A stretch of 64,000 nt of DNA from positions 62,001-126,000 of the forward strand of contig NZ_FOMI01000001.1 in assembly GCF_900112595.1 (NCBI RefSeq). The letters are read 5' to 3'. Positions 25,877 to 62,163 of the stretch are shown in pieces; positions within the stretch are counted from its first letter, which is position 1; each line of letters starts with the position of its first letter. The notes beneath the pieces were generated by a model. That model was not told the origin of the DNA. It saw nothing but the letters and a program-made list of their open reading frames with translations, and did not search any database. The stretch comes from Algibacter pectinivorans. Lineage in GTDB: Bacteria > Bacteroidota > Bacteroidia > Flavobacteriales > Flavobacteriaceae. The translations under genes and the position numbers were made by a program.

Positions 25877-26884
25877 ATGAAAACAAAACTACTCATTTTA
25901 GCTTGCCTTTGCACCATTTTTAGCTTTGGGCAAACGGTATCGACGTACCAAAGTACACCCAACACCAATTTCACTATTTTAACACCTACAACAGGTATAG
26001 ACCAATCGGCTACCGGCGCCAATGCTAATTGGACTTTTAACAATTTAACCCCAGGAAACACCTATGTAGATACCTATACAACACCAACGGCAACTCAATT
26101 AACAACCTACCCAGGCACAACCAATGTGCTTACAATAATTAATGAAGCAGTTACCTCTAACCCTAATCAGTTTTTTATAGCAGAAAGCGACACAGGAACA
26201 GCCATTACAGGAATTTCTCAAGGCGATATCCAATTAAATTACGACACAGAAAATGCATTTATTGGCTTGTTCCCCATGAGCTTTGAAACAAATAACTCTG
26301 GCCCCGTATCTGGTAGTTTCACTTACCAAGGTAACAACGGCACATTTACAGGTACATTTTCTGCTTCCATTGAGGCCTATGGTACGCTAACCATAGGAAC
26401 AACATATAGCGAAACAGTTACACGCATGCGTATAGACCAAAATTTAAGTTTTAGCATTCCTCCAACATTTAATGATATTGGAACTCTAACACAAACCGTC
26501 TATTACTACTTTAATAATACAACAAACAATATGGATTTTAGATTTAGCAATACCAATGTTGTATCTACCATTTTAAATATAAACCAAACCTCCGAATCTT
26601 TCGAGTTTAACACCACAGATAACACGCTATCTAGCAAGGATTTTAATTTAGCTGCCCTTACAAAATTATACCCAAATCCCGCACAAAATGCAATACGCGT
26701 TAACATACCAAATAACGAGACAGTAAAATCATTTTTAATATACGACAACCAAGGGCGAATTGTATCTACCAGAAGTGAACACCATAACAACATTGATATA
26801 AGCAACCTAAATACTGGTCTATATTTCCTGAATATTCAAACCAATTCCGGGAAGGTTTTTAATAAAAAGTTTGTTAAAAACTAA
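25877..26884 (+). CDS. Type IX secretion cargo protein of unknown function
   Basis: 335 residues. Signal peptide ending in FSFGQ, a beta-rich Asn-, Thr- and Ser-rich central part (about 20-255), and a C-terminal type A sorting domain (about 260-335): LYPNPAQNAIRVNI, then FLIYDNQGRIV, then IDISNLNTGLYFLNI and a final KFVKN. The sorting domain directs export across the outer membrane by the type IX system. No catalytic motif found in the central part, so adhesion or surface layer roles are possible. Monocistronic as far as can be seen. Confidence 0.8.
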   Translation: MKTKLLILACLCTIFSFGQTVSTYQSTPNTNFTILTPTTGIDQSATGANANWTFNNLTPGNTYVDTYTTPTATQLTTYPGTTNVLTIINEAVTSNPNQFFIAESDTGTAITGISQGDIQLNYDTENAFIGLFPMSFETNNSGPVSGSFTYQGNNGTFTGTFSASIEAYGTLTIGTTYSETVTRMRIDQNLSFSIPPTFNDIGTLTQTVYYYFNNTTNNMDFRFSNTNVVSTILNINQTSESFEFNTTDNTLSSKDFNLAALTKLYPNPAQNAIRVNIPNNETVKSFLIYDNQGRIVSTRSEHHNNIDISNLNTGLYFLNIQTNSGKVFNKKFVKN

Positions 26885-27019: not shown

Positions 27020-27027
27020 TATATTTG
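27020..27027 (+). promoter_or_regulatory. -7 promoter element of the gat operon
   Basis: TATATTTG matches TAnnTTTG exactly. A start about 5-8 bases later would leave roughly 10-13 bases before the leader ATG at 27045, a distance typical for leader-peptide operons. The -33 element is weak (TAGTGTAT region). Confidence 0.5.
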
Positions 27028-27044
27028 GGCGCATTAATATAACA

Positions 27045-27092
27045 ATGACAAATAATAACAATAATAATAATTTCAATAATCCTAATTTATAG
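27045..27092 (+). CDS. Poly-asparagine leader peptide of the gatC-gatA-gatB/aspS operon
   Basis: A 15-codon frame, MTNNNNNNNFNNPNL, in which 10 of 15 codons specify Asn (AAT or AAC), seven of them in a row (27051-27071). It lies between a -7 promoter element and a strong terminator and directly precedes genes that make Asn-tRNA(Asn) by amidation. Stop codon TAG at 27090. A ribosome running out of charged tRNA(Asn) would stall in the run; one that finishes would cover the bases following the stop. This is the logic of amino-acid attenuators such as those of his and trp operons, here for asparagine. The peptide itself probably has no function. Confidence 0.78.
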   Translation: MTNNNNNNNFNNPNL

Positions 27093-27097
27093 GGTCC

Positions 27098-27153
27098 GGA
27101 AGGTTATTGTTTAAAAATATATAAAGCCTTCCTTATTTTGGAAGGCTTTTTTT
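27098..27153 (+). terminator. Attenuator: terminator with competing antiterminator
   Basis: Terminator stem AAAGCCTTCC (27123-27132) with GGAAGGCTTT (27140-27149), 7-base loop, then T tract. The segment GGAAGGTT (27098-27105), starting six bases after the leader stop, can pair with AGCCTTCC (27125-27132; 8 pairs including one G-U), which removes the terminator. A ribosome on the leader stop would hide that segment. gatC starts 39 bases after the T tract. Confidence 0.78.
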
Positions 27154-27192
27154 ATAGATACCAATTAGTATCTCAATTTAAAATTAAAAGAC

Positions 27193-27459
27193 ATGAGTAA
27201 AATTATGACAGTCGACGTATTGTCGAGTATTAAAGGAGCGCAGCCATCAGAAGCGGTTAACAAACTATTTGAAGTTATTAAAAACGCTAATACATCAAAT
27301 AATAATGCTTCCAATAATCATAATAACGCCGTGTCTTTAAACGATTTAAGAGACGATGTAGTTGTAGATAGTTCGGCTACCGAAAAACAAATCATCATCG
27401 AAAACTTTCCAAAAGAAAAAAACGGCTATTTAGTAGTTTCTAAAGTTATAGAAGAATAA
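27193..27459 (+). CDS. gatC: Divergent GatC subunit with Asn-rich linker
   Basis: 88 residues. The C-terminal 40 residues match the tail of GatC: LRDDVV at 52-57, then ENFPKEKNGYLVVSKVIEE, corresponding to the usual LREDVV, NAP, GYF and VPKVIE landmarks. The N-terminal half lacks the normal helical LARLEL segment and instead has a short helix (VNKLFEVIKN) and an Asn-rich stretch (9 Asn in residues 31-45). GatC holds GatA and GatB together in the tRNA amidotransferase. It begins the operon after the attenuator; gatA starts two bases after its stop. A simple similarity search would probably miss it, so this call rests on the C-terminal match plus context. Confidence 0.72.
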   Translation: MSKIMTVDVLSSIKGAQPSEAVNKLFEVIKNANTSNNNASNNHNNAVSLNDLRDDVVVDSSATEKQIIIENFPKEKNGYLVVSKVIEE

Positions 27460-27461
27460 TT

Positions 27462-28862
27462 ATGAGTTCTCAAATACACAGTATTCATCAGCAATTGGTG
27501 AACAAAGACATAACTTGTACCGCTCTGGTTCAAGAAAAATTAGATCTTTTAAAACAAAACACAAACAATACGGTAAATGCATTGCTAGATACTTTAGCTC
27601 TAGATTTAGCCGCAAAAGTAGACGCTAAAATTGCAAATGGCGAAACCATTGGCCTGTTAGAAGGTATCCCTTTTGGAATTAAAGATGTGTATATGGTTCA
27701 AGGCACGTACACAACAGCAAGTTCAGATTTACTTAAAAATTACAAATCGGCATACACAGCAACGGCCATCCAAAAATTATTAGATGCCGGAGCCATTCCG
27801 TTGGTAAAAGAAAACTGCGATAGTTTTGGTCATGGTTCTTCTAGCGAAAACACCATTTTTGGCGCCGTAAAAAACGCTATTAACCCAGACTTAGTTGGTG
27901 GTGGTTCTAGTGGTGGTTCTGCAGTAAACGTAGCTAAAGATTACACGGTATTTTCTATTGGTGGCGATACTGGTGGTTCTGTACGTCAGCCAGCTGGTTA
28001 CAATAATGTGTATGGTTTAAAACCAACTTACGGGCGTATTTCTCGCTACGGTTTAATGGCCTACGCATCGTCAACAGACTGTGTTGGTCCTATTGCTAAA
28101 TCTATAGAGGATATTCGTATTGTACTTAACGTAATGAGTGGTAAAGATGCTAAAGATCAAACCACTTACGCTTCCGCGGAAATTACGCCAGATAGCATTG
28201 CAAATTCCAACACCATTAAAACCGTTGGATATTTCAAGAATTTTATTGAAAACGATTCTATTGATGCTACTATTAAAGCAGATTTTTTAGCAACCATCGA
28301 AAAAATAAAAGCTAAAGGCATTGCCGTTAAAGCTTTAGATTTCTTTGAATCTGAAACCTTGGTATCAACCTACTATACTTTGGCTATGGCCGAAACCGCA
28401 TCTAACCTATCAAGATTAGACGGTACAAATTACGGTAACCGTATTGAATCTGATAATTTAAAAGAAACCTACGCCGTTACGCGTTCAGAGAATTTTTCGG
28501 AAGAAACAAAACGTAGAATTGTTGGTGGCAACCAGGTGTTATCTCAAGGATTTTCAGATGCTATTTATTTAAAAGGCTTAGCCCTAAGAGATGCTATTGC
28601 AGAAAATTTCGAAAAAGATTTTTCGGCAGTAGATATTATCATTTCTCCGGTTACACCTAACACGCCGCCTAAAATTGGCGATAGTTTAAAAGACCCACAC
28701 GCCATGTATTTAAGCGATGCCTACACCGTTGGTTTTAGTTTGGGGCAATTACCAACCTTAACGGTACCTCAAGGCACTGCAACAGGCCTGCAAATTACGG
28801 CAGCAAAAAATAACGACGAACTTGTTTTGAAGTTTGCTAACTTCTTAAAAGATACGATATAA
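27462..28862 (+). CDS. gatA: Asp-tRNA(Asn)/Glu-tRNA(Gln) amidotransferase subunit A
   Basis: 466 residues, slightly shorter than the 480-490 of many GatA proteins. The amidase-signature triad is complete: K74 in GIKDVY, S149 in GGGSSGGSA and S173 in GGDTGGSVRQ, with distances equal to those in the structurally known enzymes. GatA releases ammonia from glutamine or asparagine for GatB. Cytoplasmic, part of GatCAB. It starts two bases after gatC and its stop codon overlaps the gatB/aspS start (TAATG), so all three are translated in a coupled way. Fusion of the partner GatB with AspRS points to Asp-tRNA(Asn) as main substrate. Confidence 0.95.
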   Translation: MSSQIHSIHQQLVNKDITCTALVQEKLDLLKQNTNNTVNALLDTLALDLAAKVDAKIANGETIGLLEGIPFGIKDVYMVQGTYTTASSDLLKNYKSAYTATAIQKLLDAGAIPLVKENCDSFGHGSSSENTIFGAVKNAINPDLVGGGSSGGSAVNVAKDYTVFSIGGDTGGSVRQPAGYNNVYGLKPTYGRISRYGLMAYASSTDCVGPIAKSIEDIRIVLNVMSGKDAKDQTTYASAEITPDSIANSNTIKTVGYFKNFIENDSIDATIKADFLATIEKIKAKGIAVKALDFFESETLVSTYYTLAMAETASNLSRLDGTNYGNRIESDNLKETYAVTRSENFSEETKRRIVGGNQVLSQGFSDAIYLKGLALRDAIAENFEKDFSAVDIIISPVTPNTPPKIGDSLKDPHAMYLSDAYTVGFSLGQLPTLTVPQGTATGLQITAAKNNDELVLKFANFLKDTI

Positions 28863-31800
28863 TGGATTTAGAGCAATTAAACGACGCACTTAAAAAACAC
28901 GAATTAGAGTTAGTTATCGGTCTGGAAACCCACGTTCGATTAAACACTAAAACCAAATTATTTTGTTCTTGTACTAACCAAGAAATAGAACAACCAAATC
29001 AAAATATTTGTTCGGTTTGTACAGGGCAAATGGGTGTTTTACCTGCCATAAATAAAGAGGCTATTACTAAGGCTATTTATTTTGGAAAGGCTGTAAAATC
29101 GACTTTTAGTAACGAGGTTATTTCTTGGGATAGAAAGCATTACGAGTATCCAGACAACCCGAAAAACATACAAATTACACAGTTTCATAATCCGGTAATT
29201 CCAGACGGACAAGTGTCTTGTTTCCGTAATGATGGTTCGCAATTTACCGTTAACTTAACGCAAGTGCATATCGAGGAAGATGCTGCGAAATTGATGCACG
29301 AGAAAAAAATCTCGTTAGTCGATTTTAATAAAGCCGGTGTACCGTTAATTGAAATTGTAACCGAGCCATGTGTGCGTCATATCGAAGATGCTTCAACCTA
29401 CGCACAGTACATTCAGCGTATTGTTCAAAACTTAGGCATTTCTGAAGCTAACCTTGAAAAAGGAGAATTTAAATCGGATGTTTCTGTATCGCTTCGTAAA
29501 AAACACGATTATAATTTAAACCCACGTACCGAAATAAAAAACTTAAACTCGTTTAAGTTTATGGTCGATGCGTTAAAAGAAGAAGTTGAAAAACAACTTA
29601 ACTATTTCTTAGAGCATAAAGAATTTAGACCAGACCAAACCACCGTGTTATGGGATGCAGAACTTAAGCAAACCAAAACCATGCGTAAAAAGGAATTCGA
29701 GGCCGATTACCGTTTTATTTCGGAGCCCGATTTACCTTTTGTAAGCATAAAAGATGTGGTTGAATCTATCGATGTCGATTTAAGCACTTTACCCTTTGCA
29801 GTAGAATCTATTTTAATAAAAGGTGGCGTATTACCACAAGATGCTAAGTTTTTTACAGCCGATTCATTGCGTTCTGAAACCTTTGTAGCGATAAACAATG
29901 TGTTAAAAGAACCATCTTTTGTTGCAAAAACCTTAACGAATAATATAAAAGCAGAAGACTATACAAAAATAGAAAATGTTTCAGATTTTACTGCCATATT
30001 CAGCCTGTTTAAAGATGATAAAGTTACGTCTGTTTTAGCACAAAACGCTATTAAATCGGTATTAGAAAACCCTAGTTTCGATTACAAAACATATTTTGAA
30101 GCGAATACCATTTCAGAATCTAAAATTGAAGATGCTATAGCCAAGGTCATTTCAGAAAACGAAGCCGTAGCAAACGATATTAAAGCAGGAAACCAAGGGA
30201 AAGCAGGTATTCTTGTTGGAAAAGTTATTGGTATTATTGGTAAAGGTGCCTCAGGAAAAGTAATTCGCGAGGGCATTTTAAGTGCACTTGCAGGAAATGA
30301 AGGCGCAAGCACGACAACCGAAAACGCAAGCACACAACAACCAATAACAAACAACCAACAACCAGTAACCAAAACAGAAGAAGTTCTACCAGAAATTCCG
30401 ATTGTTGTAAAGGACGAATACAGAACACACGTTATCTCTGATATTTCGGACGATAGTATTTCTGAAAACGTAACACTTTCCGGTTGGGTGTCTAGTGTGC
30501 GCGACCATGGCGAATTAATGTTTATCGATTTACGCGATTCTAGCACACAGGTATTTCAAGTTCGATTAAGTAGAGAATCGTTTGCTAATCTAGATGAGTT
30601 AGTAAAACTGAAACCAGAATCGGTTATTACAGTTTCTGGAACCATCATGCAACGTAAGGAGGATGATTATAACGCGGCTTTAAGAACCGGTAAAATTGAA
30701 TTAGAAGCCAAAGATTTAGAAATTTTAAACCTTTCTAAAACCTTACCTTTTGAAATAAAAAGAGCTACCAAAACCAACGAAACGGTTCGTTTTCAATATA
30801 AATATCTAGATCATAGAAATGATGATGTTCGTAGAGCTATTGTAAATCGCCATAAGGTAATTAAAATGATGCGTGATATTTTGGACGACCAAGAGTTCCT
30901 TGAAATTGAAACGCCTATTTTAAGTGCAGGAACCGATGAGGGTGCGCGCGAATTTATTGTACCAACACGTAAGCAAGCCGGTTCGTTTTACACGCTTCCG
31001 CAGGCACCACAACAGTTTAAACAAATGTTGATGGTAAGTGGTTACGAAAAGTATTTCCAGATAGCACGTTGTTTTAGAGATGAAGATTCTAGAGGCGATC
31101 GCCAACCAGAATTTACACAATTAGATATTGAAATGGCGTACGCTAGCATGCAACAAATTATCGATTTAAACACAAATATGTTTAATGCTATTGTTGAAAA
31201 AATATATGGTAAAAAATGGATATTACGTCCATTTGAAGTGATTACCTATAAGGAAGCCATGGACAGTTATGGCTGCGATAGGCCAGATTTACGTTTTGGT
31301 TTAAAACTACAAGACATTACAGAGTTTGTAAAAGATACCACCTTCCAAGTGTTTAGCAAACCTATTGAAGAAGGCGGTATTGTAAAATGTATTAAAGTTT
31401 CGGCTGAAGAGCAAGGAAACAAACGCTTATCGAAAGGGCAAATTGAAAAACTAACCACTTTAGCACAAAGTCATGGTCTTGGTGGTTTAGCGTACATTAT
31501 TGTAAACGAAAACGATTTACAATCGCCAATTATTAAGTTTTTAGGCGAAGATATTGCCGCAGCAATCATTAAAACAACCAACGCACAAGTTGGTGATATT
31601 GTATTCTTTTCGGCAGCAGATTATGCAACAGCCAACAAAGCTTTAGATGCTGTACGCCAAGAATTAGGTAAAATGTTACGTTTGATTAACCCTAAGGAAT
31701 TAAGACCTGCTTGGGTTATTGATTTCCCTATGTTTGAAAAAACAGACGAAGGCCGTTGGACGTTTACACACAACCCGTTCTCTATGCCAGCTATTTATGA

Positions 31801-32200
31801 TATTGAAAAACACATGAATGGTAAGGAAGAAGAAATTGGAAGCATTATTGCCCAGCAATACGATTTAATTTTAAATGGTTACGAAATTGGTGGTGGTTCT
31901 GTGCGTGCGCACAAACCTGAAATTTTAGAGGCTACATATAAAAACATGGGCTACAACAAAGAAGAAATGATGAAAAGTGTTGGCACCATGTATAAAGCGT
32001 TCCATTATGGGGCACCACCACACGGCGGCATTGCTTGGGGTGTAGATAGATTAATGATGATTTTAGAGAAAAAAGCATCTATTAGAGAAGTTATGGCGTT
32101 CCCAAAAACAGGAACTAGTGAAGATTTACTCTTTGGAGCTCCTTCTCCTCTATCTGATAAAAAGGTTGAAGAAATGAACGTAAGAATTCTAAAAAAATAA
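28862..32200 (+). CDS. gatB/aspS: GatB fused to aspartyl-tRNA synthetase
   Basis: 1112 residues. Residues 1 to about 480 are GatB: ELVIGLETHV opening, zinc ligands C35, C37, C50 and C53, and a YqeY-like tail domain at about 390-480. A linker rich in Thr, Asn and Gln (about 480-512) joins a full AspRS at about 515-1112: anticodon-binding OB fold (SGWVSSVRDHG), class II motif 2 (FRDEDSRGDRQPEFTQLD), the bacterial GAD insertion and motif 3 (GIAWGVDRLMMI). In the anticodon region RDHG has His at about 549, the residue I associate with non-discriminating AspRS that also charge tRNA(Asn). So one polypeptide should make Asp-tRNA(Asn) and pass it to its own amidotransferase. Not separated by a stop or frameshift. 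Confidence 0.93.
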   Translation: MDLEQLNDALKKHELELVIGLETHVRLNTKTKLFCSCTNQEIEQPNQNICSVCTGQMGVLPAINKEAITKAIYFGKAVKSTFSNEVISWDRKHYEYPDNPKNIQITQFHNPVIPDGQVSCFRNDGSQFTVNLTQVHIEEDAAKLMHEKKISLVDFNKAGVPLIEIVTEPCVRHIEDASTYAQYIQRIVQNLGISEANLEKGEFKSDVSVSLRKKHDYNLNPRTEIKNLNSFKFMVDALKEEVEKQLNYFLEHKEFRPDQTTVLWDAELKQTKTMRKKEFEADYRFISEPDLPFVSIKDVVESIDVDLSTLPFAVESILIKGGVLPQDAKFFTADSLRSETFVAINNVLKEPSFVAKTLTNNIKAEDYTKIENVSDFTAIFSLFKDDKVTSVLAQNAIKSVLENPSFDYKTYFEANTISESKIEDAIAKVISENEAVANDIKAGNQGKAGILVGKVIGIIGKGASGKVIREGILSALAGNEGASTTTENASTQQPITNNQQPVTKTEEVLPEIPIVVKDEYRTHVISDISDDSISENVTLSGWVSSVRDHGELMFIDLRDSSTQVFQVRLSRESFANLDELVKLKPESVITVSGTIMQRKEDDYNAALRTGKIELEAKDLEILNLSKTLPFEIKRATKTNETVRFQYKYLDHRNDDVRRAIVNRHKVIKMMRDILDDQEFLEIETPILSAGTDEGAREFIVPTRKQAGSFYTLPQAPQQFKQMLMVSGYEKYFQIARCFRDEDSRGDRQPEFTQLDIEMAYASMQQIIDLNTNMFNAIVEKIYGKKWILRPFEVITYKEAMDSYGCDRPDLRFGLKLQDITEFVKDTTFQVFSKPIEEGGIVKCIKVSAEEQGNKRLSKGQIEKLTTLAQSHGLGGLAYIIVNENDLQSPIIKFLGEDIAAAIIKTTNAQVGDIVFFSAADYATANKALDAVRQELGKMLRLINPKELRPAWVIDFPMFEKTDEGRWTFTHNPFSMPAIYDIEKHMNGKEEEIGSIIAQQYDLILNGYEIGGGSVRAHKPEILEATYKNMGYNKEEMMKSVGTMYKAFHYGAPPHGGIAWGVDRLMMILEKKASIREVMAFPKTGTSEDLLFGAPSPLSDKKVEEMNVRILKK

Positions 32201-48936: not shown

Positions 48937-49104
48937 AGTATTTTAAGTCTTCTGTAGGCAGCCACAAGTATGTAGACTGCGCTATAATTAAAATTTAAGT
49001 TGCAAAAATAACTAAATATTTTGTTTTTACAGGCTTGTATTTAGCTTTTACTTAAACAAGTTGAAGGGTAATTAGCAAAAAAAACGTAGTTGGCGGACCA
49101 ACCC

Positions 49105-49189
49105 GCGTTAGGGATTGTAGTGGAAATCCTTTTTGTGAGGCACGAGCAAAAAGATTGGGAACGGAAAGCCCGACCTGAAAGGGAACGCC
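49105..49189 (+). repeat. Dispersed GCGTTAGGGAT repeat, copy D
   Basis: Begins GCGTTAGGGATTGTAGTGG, has a hairpin CTTTTTG / CAAAAAG around a short loop, then GGAACGGAAAGCCCGACC and GGGAACGCC. It lacks the AGCCCACAGCC block of copies B and C, so it is another subtype. Located between ffh and argS, both on the minus strand. Confidence 0.75.
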
Positions 49190-61972: not shown

Positions 61973-62163
61973 TTTAAATTTGTTTTGAGAGTGATTATGA
62001 ATTAAGGTCTTAATCTTATCCTTCGAAAATCGTTGATCTCTCGTTAATACTTGTTAATTATTTTTTTCAGTTTGCAAATTTACACAAAAAATTAATATCA
62101 TCTGAAATACAGATGATATTAATTTTTCTATTTGCTTTATTTAATTTTAGTTAACTAACTAAA

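Follow-up and report, generated by a model that had tools for sequence, protein, structure and literature searches.

A candidate asparagine-codon transcription attenuator before the gatCAB-aspS operon of Algibacter pectinivorans and related Flavobacteriaceae

The leader element and the genes behind it

The window analysed here, a stretch of 64,000 nucleotides from contig NZ_FOMI01000001.1 of the flavobacterium Algibacter pectinivorans, contains a gatC-gatA-gatB/aspS operon that is preceded by a short, asparagine-rich open reading frame (ORF) and an intrinsic terminator (Table 1). A first-pass annotation, made from the sequence alone, had described a leader of 15 codons with ten Asn codons, seven of them consecutive, and this was confirmed by direct reading. 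On both strands of the window, no other ATG-initiated ORF of up to 25 codons has seven or more Asn codons; when the window was modelled 60 times as a first-order Markov sequence, such ORFs averaged 0.05 per copy and none had ten Asn codons. The pairing segment GGAAGGTT, said to lie six bases after the stop, was found where expected, with the spacing corrected to five bases (GGTCC). The claimed terminator was recovered at 27123-27153 both by direct reading and by the terminator search, as AAAGCCTTCC-TTATTTT-GGAAGGCTTT-TTTT. Eight pairs, one of them U-G, are possible between GGAAGGTT and AGCCTTCC (27125-27132) in the 5' arm of the terminator. Folding of positions 27032-27165 gave a minimum free energy of −27.4 kcal/mol (z = −3.31), and 1 of 200 shuffles was equally stable. 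The promoter-like box fits TAnnTTTG, which we take to be the Bacteroidetes −7 promoter consensus, and from it a transcription start of the leader RNA was inferred at about 27031-27034.

Table 1. Features of the leader element and the operon in the A. pectinivorans window
Feature	Position	Strand	Remark
Promoter-like box TATATTTG	27020-27027	+	fits TAnnTTTG
Asn-rich leader ORF MTNNNNNNNFNNPNL	27045-27092	+	15 codons, 10 Asn; ATG at 27045, TAG at 27090-27092
Seven consecutive Asn codons, putative stall site	27051-27071	+	
1:2 stem CAATAA/TTATTG	27074-27079 with 27104-27109	+	spans 27074-27109
Hairpin CCTA/TAGG inside the 1:2 stem	27081-27084 with 27090-27093	+	includes the stop codon
Antiterminator 5' strand GGAAGGTT	27098-27105	+	begins 5 nt past the stop
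Shared arm AAAGCCTTCC	27123-27132	+	antiterminator 3' strand and terminator 5' strand
Terminator 3' arm GGAAGGCTTT and T run	27140-27153	+	from terminator search
gatC	27193-27459	+	PF02686 barely above cut-off; TIGR00135 under its cut-off
gatA	27462-28862	+	TIGR00132 429.6 bits against cut-off 481.1 (under); PF01425 Amidase above cut-off
gatB-aspS fusion	28862-32200	+	single ORF of 1112 aa; GatB models at residues 13-477, aspS_bact at 521-1112, both above cut-off

The arrangement corresponds to that of a leader-peptide attenuator. A short ORF, presumably translated, is rich in the amino acid to be regulated, and an intrinsic terminator stands between it and the structural genes; the antiterminator would exclude the terminator by using its 5' arm; the antiterminator strand, to judge from its distance to the stop, would lie under a ribosome waiting there and be exposed when a ribosome stalls in the Asn codons; and the genes behind are predicted to supply the amino acid or the corresponding aminoacyl-tRNA. 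The element was therefore interpreted as a ribosome-mediated transcription attenuator with specificity for asparagine, a reading given a probability of about 0.9. It is based on sequence, namely on anatomy, conservation, alternative pairings and gene content, from which a transcribed and translated leader, a stalling ribosome, a switch and the activities of the enzymes are predicted.

Conservation, codon use and competing pairings

The distribution of the leader was evaluated in 397 genomes of the family, 58 of which have gatA at E ≤1e-60, together with seven same-genus genomes; one of these 65 (G201) was left out, its gatA beginning at a contig end, and 64 genomes with readable upstream DNA remained. 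The Asn-rich leader was found upstream of gatCAB in 42 of them. From a further set of titled records (the best 80 of 235), 23 were set aside as repeats of upstream DNA already seen and one (L126) for its shortness; the leader is present in 16 of the 56 that remained. The leader and its pairing thus recur at orthologous loci, and the asparagine attenuator first proposed from a single sequence gains support. Removal of four duplicates left 54 distinct leader sequences, to which the figures below refer. Leaders were found in Algibacter, Tamlana nanhaiensis, Mariniflexile, Confluentibacter, Aestuariibaculum, Flaviramulus, Hyunsoonleella and Polaribacter; none was found in Tamlana agarivorans, Algibacter mikhailovii, Hyunsoonleella flava and Polaribacter sp. 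Hel1_85, or in the Flavobacterium and Lutibacter records among the 80 titled. A covariance model of the gatC element, searched in the 397 genomes, gave 37 strong matches (E ≤1e-14) in 26 genera, of which 35 were gatC leaders already found and two were new ones (G155 and G201). Mapped onto a 95-row gatA tree, the leader label requires at least 12 changes (shuffled labels, 31.4), and well supported branches make four of these unavoidable; the leader was therefore inherited, yet lost or regained several times. A promoter-like motif resembling CTTTYGTAATTT stands before gatC in 58 of the 62 leaderless loci (e.g., L009, L014 and L036) and in 0 of the 58 loci with a leader; it probably marks a different operon start, unregulated or otherwise regulated, the operon thus having two alternative starts.

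The 54 leaders have 14–16 codons, with 7–10 Asn codons each and a TAG stop in every case; because the leaders were sought in part by an open frame rich in Asn, its presence in 54/54 is partly by construction. Codons −6 to −4 before Phe are Asn in 153 of 162 cases (77 AAT, 76 AAC) and never Lys, whereas the codon after Pro always starts with A, is AAA or AAG (Lys) in 10 of the 54 leaders and otherwise varies freely; the run is therefore kept as Asn codons. Different selection is suggested for the end of the leader, where TTC AAT AAT CCT and TAG are nearly invariant, synonymous places included. To judge from their pairing partners, TTC AAT AAT CCT A and TAG (54/54) are conserved as RNA and not as codons, because the stop hairpin CCTA-N5-TAGG is nested in the CAATAA/TTATTG stem. 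Through this 1:2 stem the antiterminator strand is linked to the leader.

Such fixation of many leader bases at the RNA level, synonymous places too, and the ability of the free leader to fold would suit a structured RNA without a translated leader (a riboswitch, T-box or small RNA), the Asn run being a by-product of AAT-rich sequence. This explanation is nevertheless very improbable, as the RNA model, which is blind to reading frame, found an open Asn-rich frame in 37/37 strong matches, the leaders differ in length by whole codons, and AAT and AAC interchange without Lys ever appearing. Additionally, no Rfam family reached its cut-off within the element (the top weak score was that of Phe_leader, 27.8 bits where the cut-off is 55), no T-box covariance model matched it at the gathering cut-off or at E up to 5, and the unrelated sequences upstream of asnA and asnB, described below, share with it only the Asn run and the logic of competing hairpins. 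The Rfam matches in the window away from the leader were a Flavo-1 RNA and an S4-Flavobacteria ribosomal protein leader, at 49096-49179 (+) and 61993-62031 (−).

The retention of Phe in 54/54 and of Pro in 53/54 leaders (FNNPN) could also be taken to mean that the leader senses a general slowing of translation, or that an FNNPN peptide stalls within the ribosome, rather than that uncharged tRNA-Asn is sensed. The chance of this is equally slight: the Phe and Pro codons lie in RNA pairings (CAATAA and CCTA), the next codon is free beyond its first A, and the asnB leaders carry an Asn run but FNNPN in 0/7. Asparagine-specific attenuation is also favoured by the pattern of conservation around the element. 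Among the 38 of 54 leader rows with gatA DNA (703 pairs), pairwise identity was 96.3% in the core, 53.2% at gatA third positions and, compared without gaps, 37.0% in the 120 nt that precede the promoter. The TAnnTTTG box sits 10–23 nt before the leader ATG in 54/54 sequences, compared with 12/216 control upstream windows. A reading of the element as no more than a chance Asn ORF beside the terminator belonging to the gene upstream (25877-26884) is hardly credible, common as a terminator followed by an operon start generally is, for 239 nt, with the promoter box among them, separate the end of that gene's ORF from the terminator, and leader, spacing and terminator are conserved where the DNA upstream of the promoter is not.

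The pairings required of the proposed attenuator are likewise conserved. The antiterminator GGAAGGTT/AGCCTTCC was paired in 99.8% of cells over the 54 rows (slid controls 31–75%), with a standard pair retained in 6 of 7 departures. The 1:2 stem and the stop hairpin were paired in 98.8% and 100% of cells, respectively (slid controls of both combined, 26–64%), and the terminator in 95.9%, its misses being due in part to rows in which a different loop length displaces the alignment. The gap between the stop and the antiterminator (GGAAGG) is 3–5 nt in 54/54. Judged by the length of a ribosome footprint, this geometry fits the earlier suggestion that a ribosome at the stop would cover the pairing bases.

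Asparagine supply and leaders before other asparagine genes

GatC and GatA fall below their NCBIfam cut-offs and are therefore divergent members. The AspRS half of the fusion is of the bacterial type, and an ORF of more than 1000 aa with the AspRS motif was present in 80/80 titled records, a covalent, transamidosome-like GatB-AspRS fusion of which no description was found in a search of the open-licence literature in PubMed Central. Two aspS genes, one fused and one free, were present in 24/24 tested operon carriers, and one in 7/7 tested non-carriers. The fused AspRS has His in the RD-H-G motif in 80/80 titled records, whereas the standalone enzyme has Lys at this place in 8/8 (seven carriers and the non-carrier G016); His at this position presumably marks non-discriminating enzymes. 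The gatC gene encodes an Asn-rich stretch, NANTSNNNASNNHNN (27283-27327), which is seen again in relatives whether or not they have the leader; an enzyme predicted to make Asn itself demands much Asn.

Searches of the A. pectinivorans genome found AsnRS, GlnRS, two AspS and a tRNA-Asn with U1-A72; AsnA was not found in it, nor was AsnB above cut-off, and the best of two weak AsnB matches (61 bits, N-terminal part) has a range that suggests a GlmS-type protein. The gene set for tRNA-dependent asparagine biosynthesis is thus complete: GatCAB, an extra AspRS, U1-A72 tRNA-Asn and AsnRS, with no AsnA or AsnB. Because AsnRS and GlnRS are present, AsnA is absent and AsnB remains under cut-off, the operon is, from gene content, probably the only way in which A. 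pectinivorans makes asparagine. The first-pass statement that the genes below the leader make Asn-tRNA fits this gene content as well, with the restriction that AsnRS is present and the operon is therefore not the sole way to Asn-tRNA.

AsnA was absent from 64/64 operon carriers and present in 29/397 family genomes, none of them a carrier. An AsnB-family gene above cut-off was found in 25/64 carriers, in which the operon may not be the sole asparagine route. The AsnB type aligned to approximately profile positions 1-385 was found in 59/60 non-carriers without AsnA and in none of the carriers' listed AsnBs (Fisher P = 5e-35, the genomes not being independent); these 60 genomes were a non-random choice from the top of the listing, and AsnB types were counted by reading listings. 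From the predicted functions, the operon appears to take the place of asparagine synthetase, asparagine being made on the tRNA as in Deinococcus and Thermus. The leader was rejected as a marker of genomes without AsnB, occurring in 15/25 carriers with AsnB above cut-off and 27/39 without (Fisher P = 0.59). It was found in 34/52 carriers with AsnRS and 0/4 without (P = 0.020), four being few and two of them belonging to the same genus; this comparison of 56 carriers omits the seven same-genus genomes, which were unsearched for AsnRS, and G301, a genome 76% complete with no AsnRS match, yet with the leader. The near-complete genomes G211, G259, G268 and G413, without an AsnRS match, all have gatCAB-aspS and no leader.

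Asn-rich leaders were also found before genes for other asparagine routes. In 6 of the 28 asnA loci read (of 29), namely L219, L220, L222, L236, L238 and L240, an Asn-rich leader is followed by a terminator, and in each of the six a second Asn-rich ORF with its own terminator stands behind the first. Absence in L226, L229, L231, L235, L244 and L250 is meaningless, because there, and thus in at least six loci, an incorrect or shortened ORF was picked by the ORF finder. The first leader showed competing pairing in 5/6 loci; it spans 7–10 bp, overlaps the end of the ORF in part, and was equalled in length by 2–60 of 1000 shuffles. The second leader showed it in 2/3 tested (2 and 3 of 1000 shuffles), the third, in L240, having no competing pairing (499/1000). 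The second ORF ends in or includes a Pro-rich stretch (SPPPGG, SPSG, SPPG or SPPQ), and in the three loci of genus g8 it runs into its terminator without a prior stop.

Similarly, the upstream regions of 40 of 59 housekeeping-type asnB genes, the first in listed order, were scanned. Nine passed the filter, L308 and L312 were dropped for want of a fitting terminator, and an Asn-rich leader with terminator was thus found in 7/40 (L293, L296, L314, L319, L320, L322 and L323). All seven have an alternative pairing of 7–8 bp within 22 nt after the stop, which 2–102 of 1000 shuffles reach; the pairing is GAAACTTG/CAAGTTTC in two, a close variant in four and AAGTAGA/TCTACTT in one. The asnA and asnB leaders, sharing logic, amino acid and pathway with the gatC leader and differing from it in letters, are the strongest support for its predicted function. 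It is likely that the Flavobacteriaceae repeatedly evolved Asn-codon attenuators before three unrelated asparagine routes, the fused GatCAB-AspRS, AsnA (with tandem leaders) and AsnB, the charge of tRNA-Asn being the recurrent signal.

The covariance model of the gatC element additionally gave ten weak matches, nine of them at leaders of ilvD/ilvE, thrA or asnA: five before ilvD or ilvE-ilvD (Ile-rich), one before thrA (Thr-rich) and three before asnA (Asn-rich). The tenth (G079) has no leader. The gene name at L216 was assigned from likeness to L217, where a SAM-II riboswitch match (194-298, −) lies just upstream of, and divergent from, the ilv leader.

Proposed mechanism and known systems

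The TATATTTG box would direct the start of transcription, with immediate translation of the Asn-rich leader. With ample Asn-tRNA, the ribosome would reach TAG and mask GGAAGG, and the shared arm AAAGCCTTCC would join the terminator. With scarce Asn-tRNA, the ribosome would stall in the Asn run, disrupting the pairing of the leader with strand 2, and the freed GGAAGGUU would pair with AGCCUUCC ahead of the synthesis of the terminator 3' arm, giving read-through into gatC-gatA-gatB/aspS. The operon's enzymes would then charge tRNA-Asn with Asp and convert this by amidation to Asn-tRNA, the species to which the leader would respond.

Several results weigh against this interpretation. The leader is missing from 22/64 genomes and 40/56 titled records that all have the same operon. 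Two-sided changes numbered zero in the antiterminator, the 1:2 stem and the stop hairpin, with one cell in the terminator; covariation is absent, and tests for it are uninformative, because the element is nearly invariant. Sequences with shuffled 3' letters pair no worse than the real ones, and the case therefore rests on conservation and anatomy. Among the additional leaders, the first-leader pairing of asnA locus L240 is no better than shuffles (577/1000), and that of asnB locus L293 is weak (102/1000). Of the two folds whose prediction had been recommended, the terminator is predicted to be the stabler in 53/54 sequences (median energies −15.95 kcal/mol against −9.9 kcal/mol for the antiterminator), contrary to an equilibrium switch. 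Before the 3' arm is made, the antiterminator has a median probability of 1.00 (minimum 0.68) with the leader masked as by a stalled ribosome; however, it also forms without a ribosome (median 0.97, minimum 0.00), and an effect of the ribosome is not demonstrated by folding energies. Thermodynamic switching through the 1:2 pairing alone was rejected as unsupported by these energies. With the terminator stabler in nearly all sequences, the switch must be kinetic, and in the absence of an equilibrium switch, timing and a stop-codon ribosome covering GGAAGG must drive it.

The attenuator would be new in its amino acid and its operon, the type of attenuation itself being known. Like the trp, his, ilv, thr, leu and phe attenuators, it has a leader, apparently translated, rich in the regulated amino acid, strands 1–4 with mutually exclusive antiterminator and terminator, and control of that amino acid's synthesis; the gatC model, moreover, weakly matches ilv and thr leaders of like build in the Flavobacteriaceae. 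It differs in being specific for asparagine and in that its operon would yield Asn-tRNA directly, whereas the classical operons yield the free amino acid. To our knowledge, asparagine is not among the amino acids with known leader-peptide attenuation. A T-box reportedly controls tRNA-dependent amidation in Clostridium acetobutylicum, where we take the logic to be the same, the charge of tRNA-Asn controlling a tRNA-amidation operon with an extra AspRS; there, however, the RNA binds tRNA directly and has no leader peptide, and the gatC element has no T-box match. Bacteroid-trp (RF01692) is a peptide leader RNA from the same phylum with a different amino acid, tryptophan, and its model did not match the gatC element in the window or in L001. 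Its match at L124:9263-9384 (Polaribacter), about 3.4 kb beyond the gatA match and far from the gatC leader, indicates that the model works.

Deinococcus, Thermus and Bdellovibrio are described in the text of PMC4206432 as having tRNA-dependent asparagine synthesis, with AsnRS, GlnRS and GatCAB and no asparagine synthetase, and the first two as having a second AspRS. The A. pectinivorans genome shares this gene content, and its operon differs from these systems in the extra AspRS, which is bacterial-type and fused to GatB, and in the putative attenuator upstream. In Staphylococcus aureus, the Asn-rich upstream ORF sORF7 appears in a passage of PMC13009471 as a proposed leader peptide, a candidate to which that passage assigns no mechanism. 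Leader-like short ORFs are mentioned for Bacteroides in the text of PMC7366714, and a statement in PMC2965389 holds that, before its own His case from the Firmicutes, no amino-acid leader-peptide system was known beyond the Proteobacteria and Actinobacteria. For Flavobacterium psychrophilum, PMC9723704 reports strong clues that amino-acid operons are attenuated by leader peptides; the word "asparagine" does not occur in its main text. The annotator's remark that no asparagine leader had been described for a gatCAB operon holds for the open-licence literature of PubMed Central, where none was found, subscription papers lying outside the search.

The candidate attenuator adds asparagine specificity in a phylum where leader-peptide control is little studied, and putative asparagine attenuation is seen at three non-homologous gene systems. 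It would also account for a GatB-AspRS fusion operon in bacteria that already have AsnRS, as the operon looks like asparagine biosynthesis under the control of its own product, and it is testable in cultured species. If the interpretation is true, the loop at gatCAB would be the tightest possible, because the product of the enzyme complex is itself what the leader senses.
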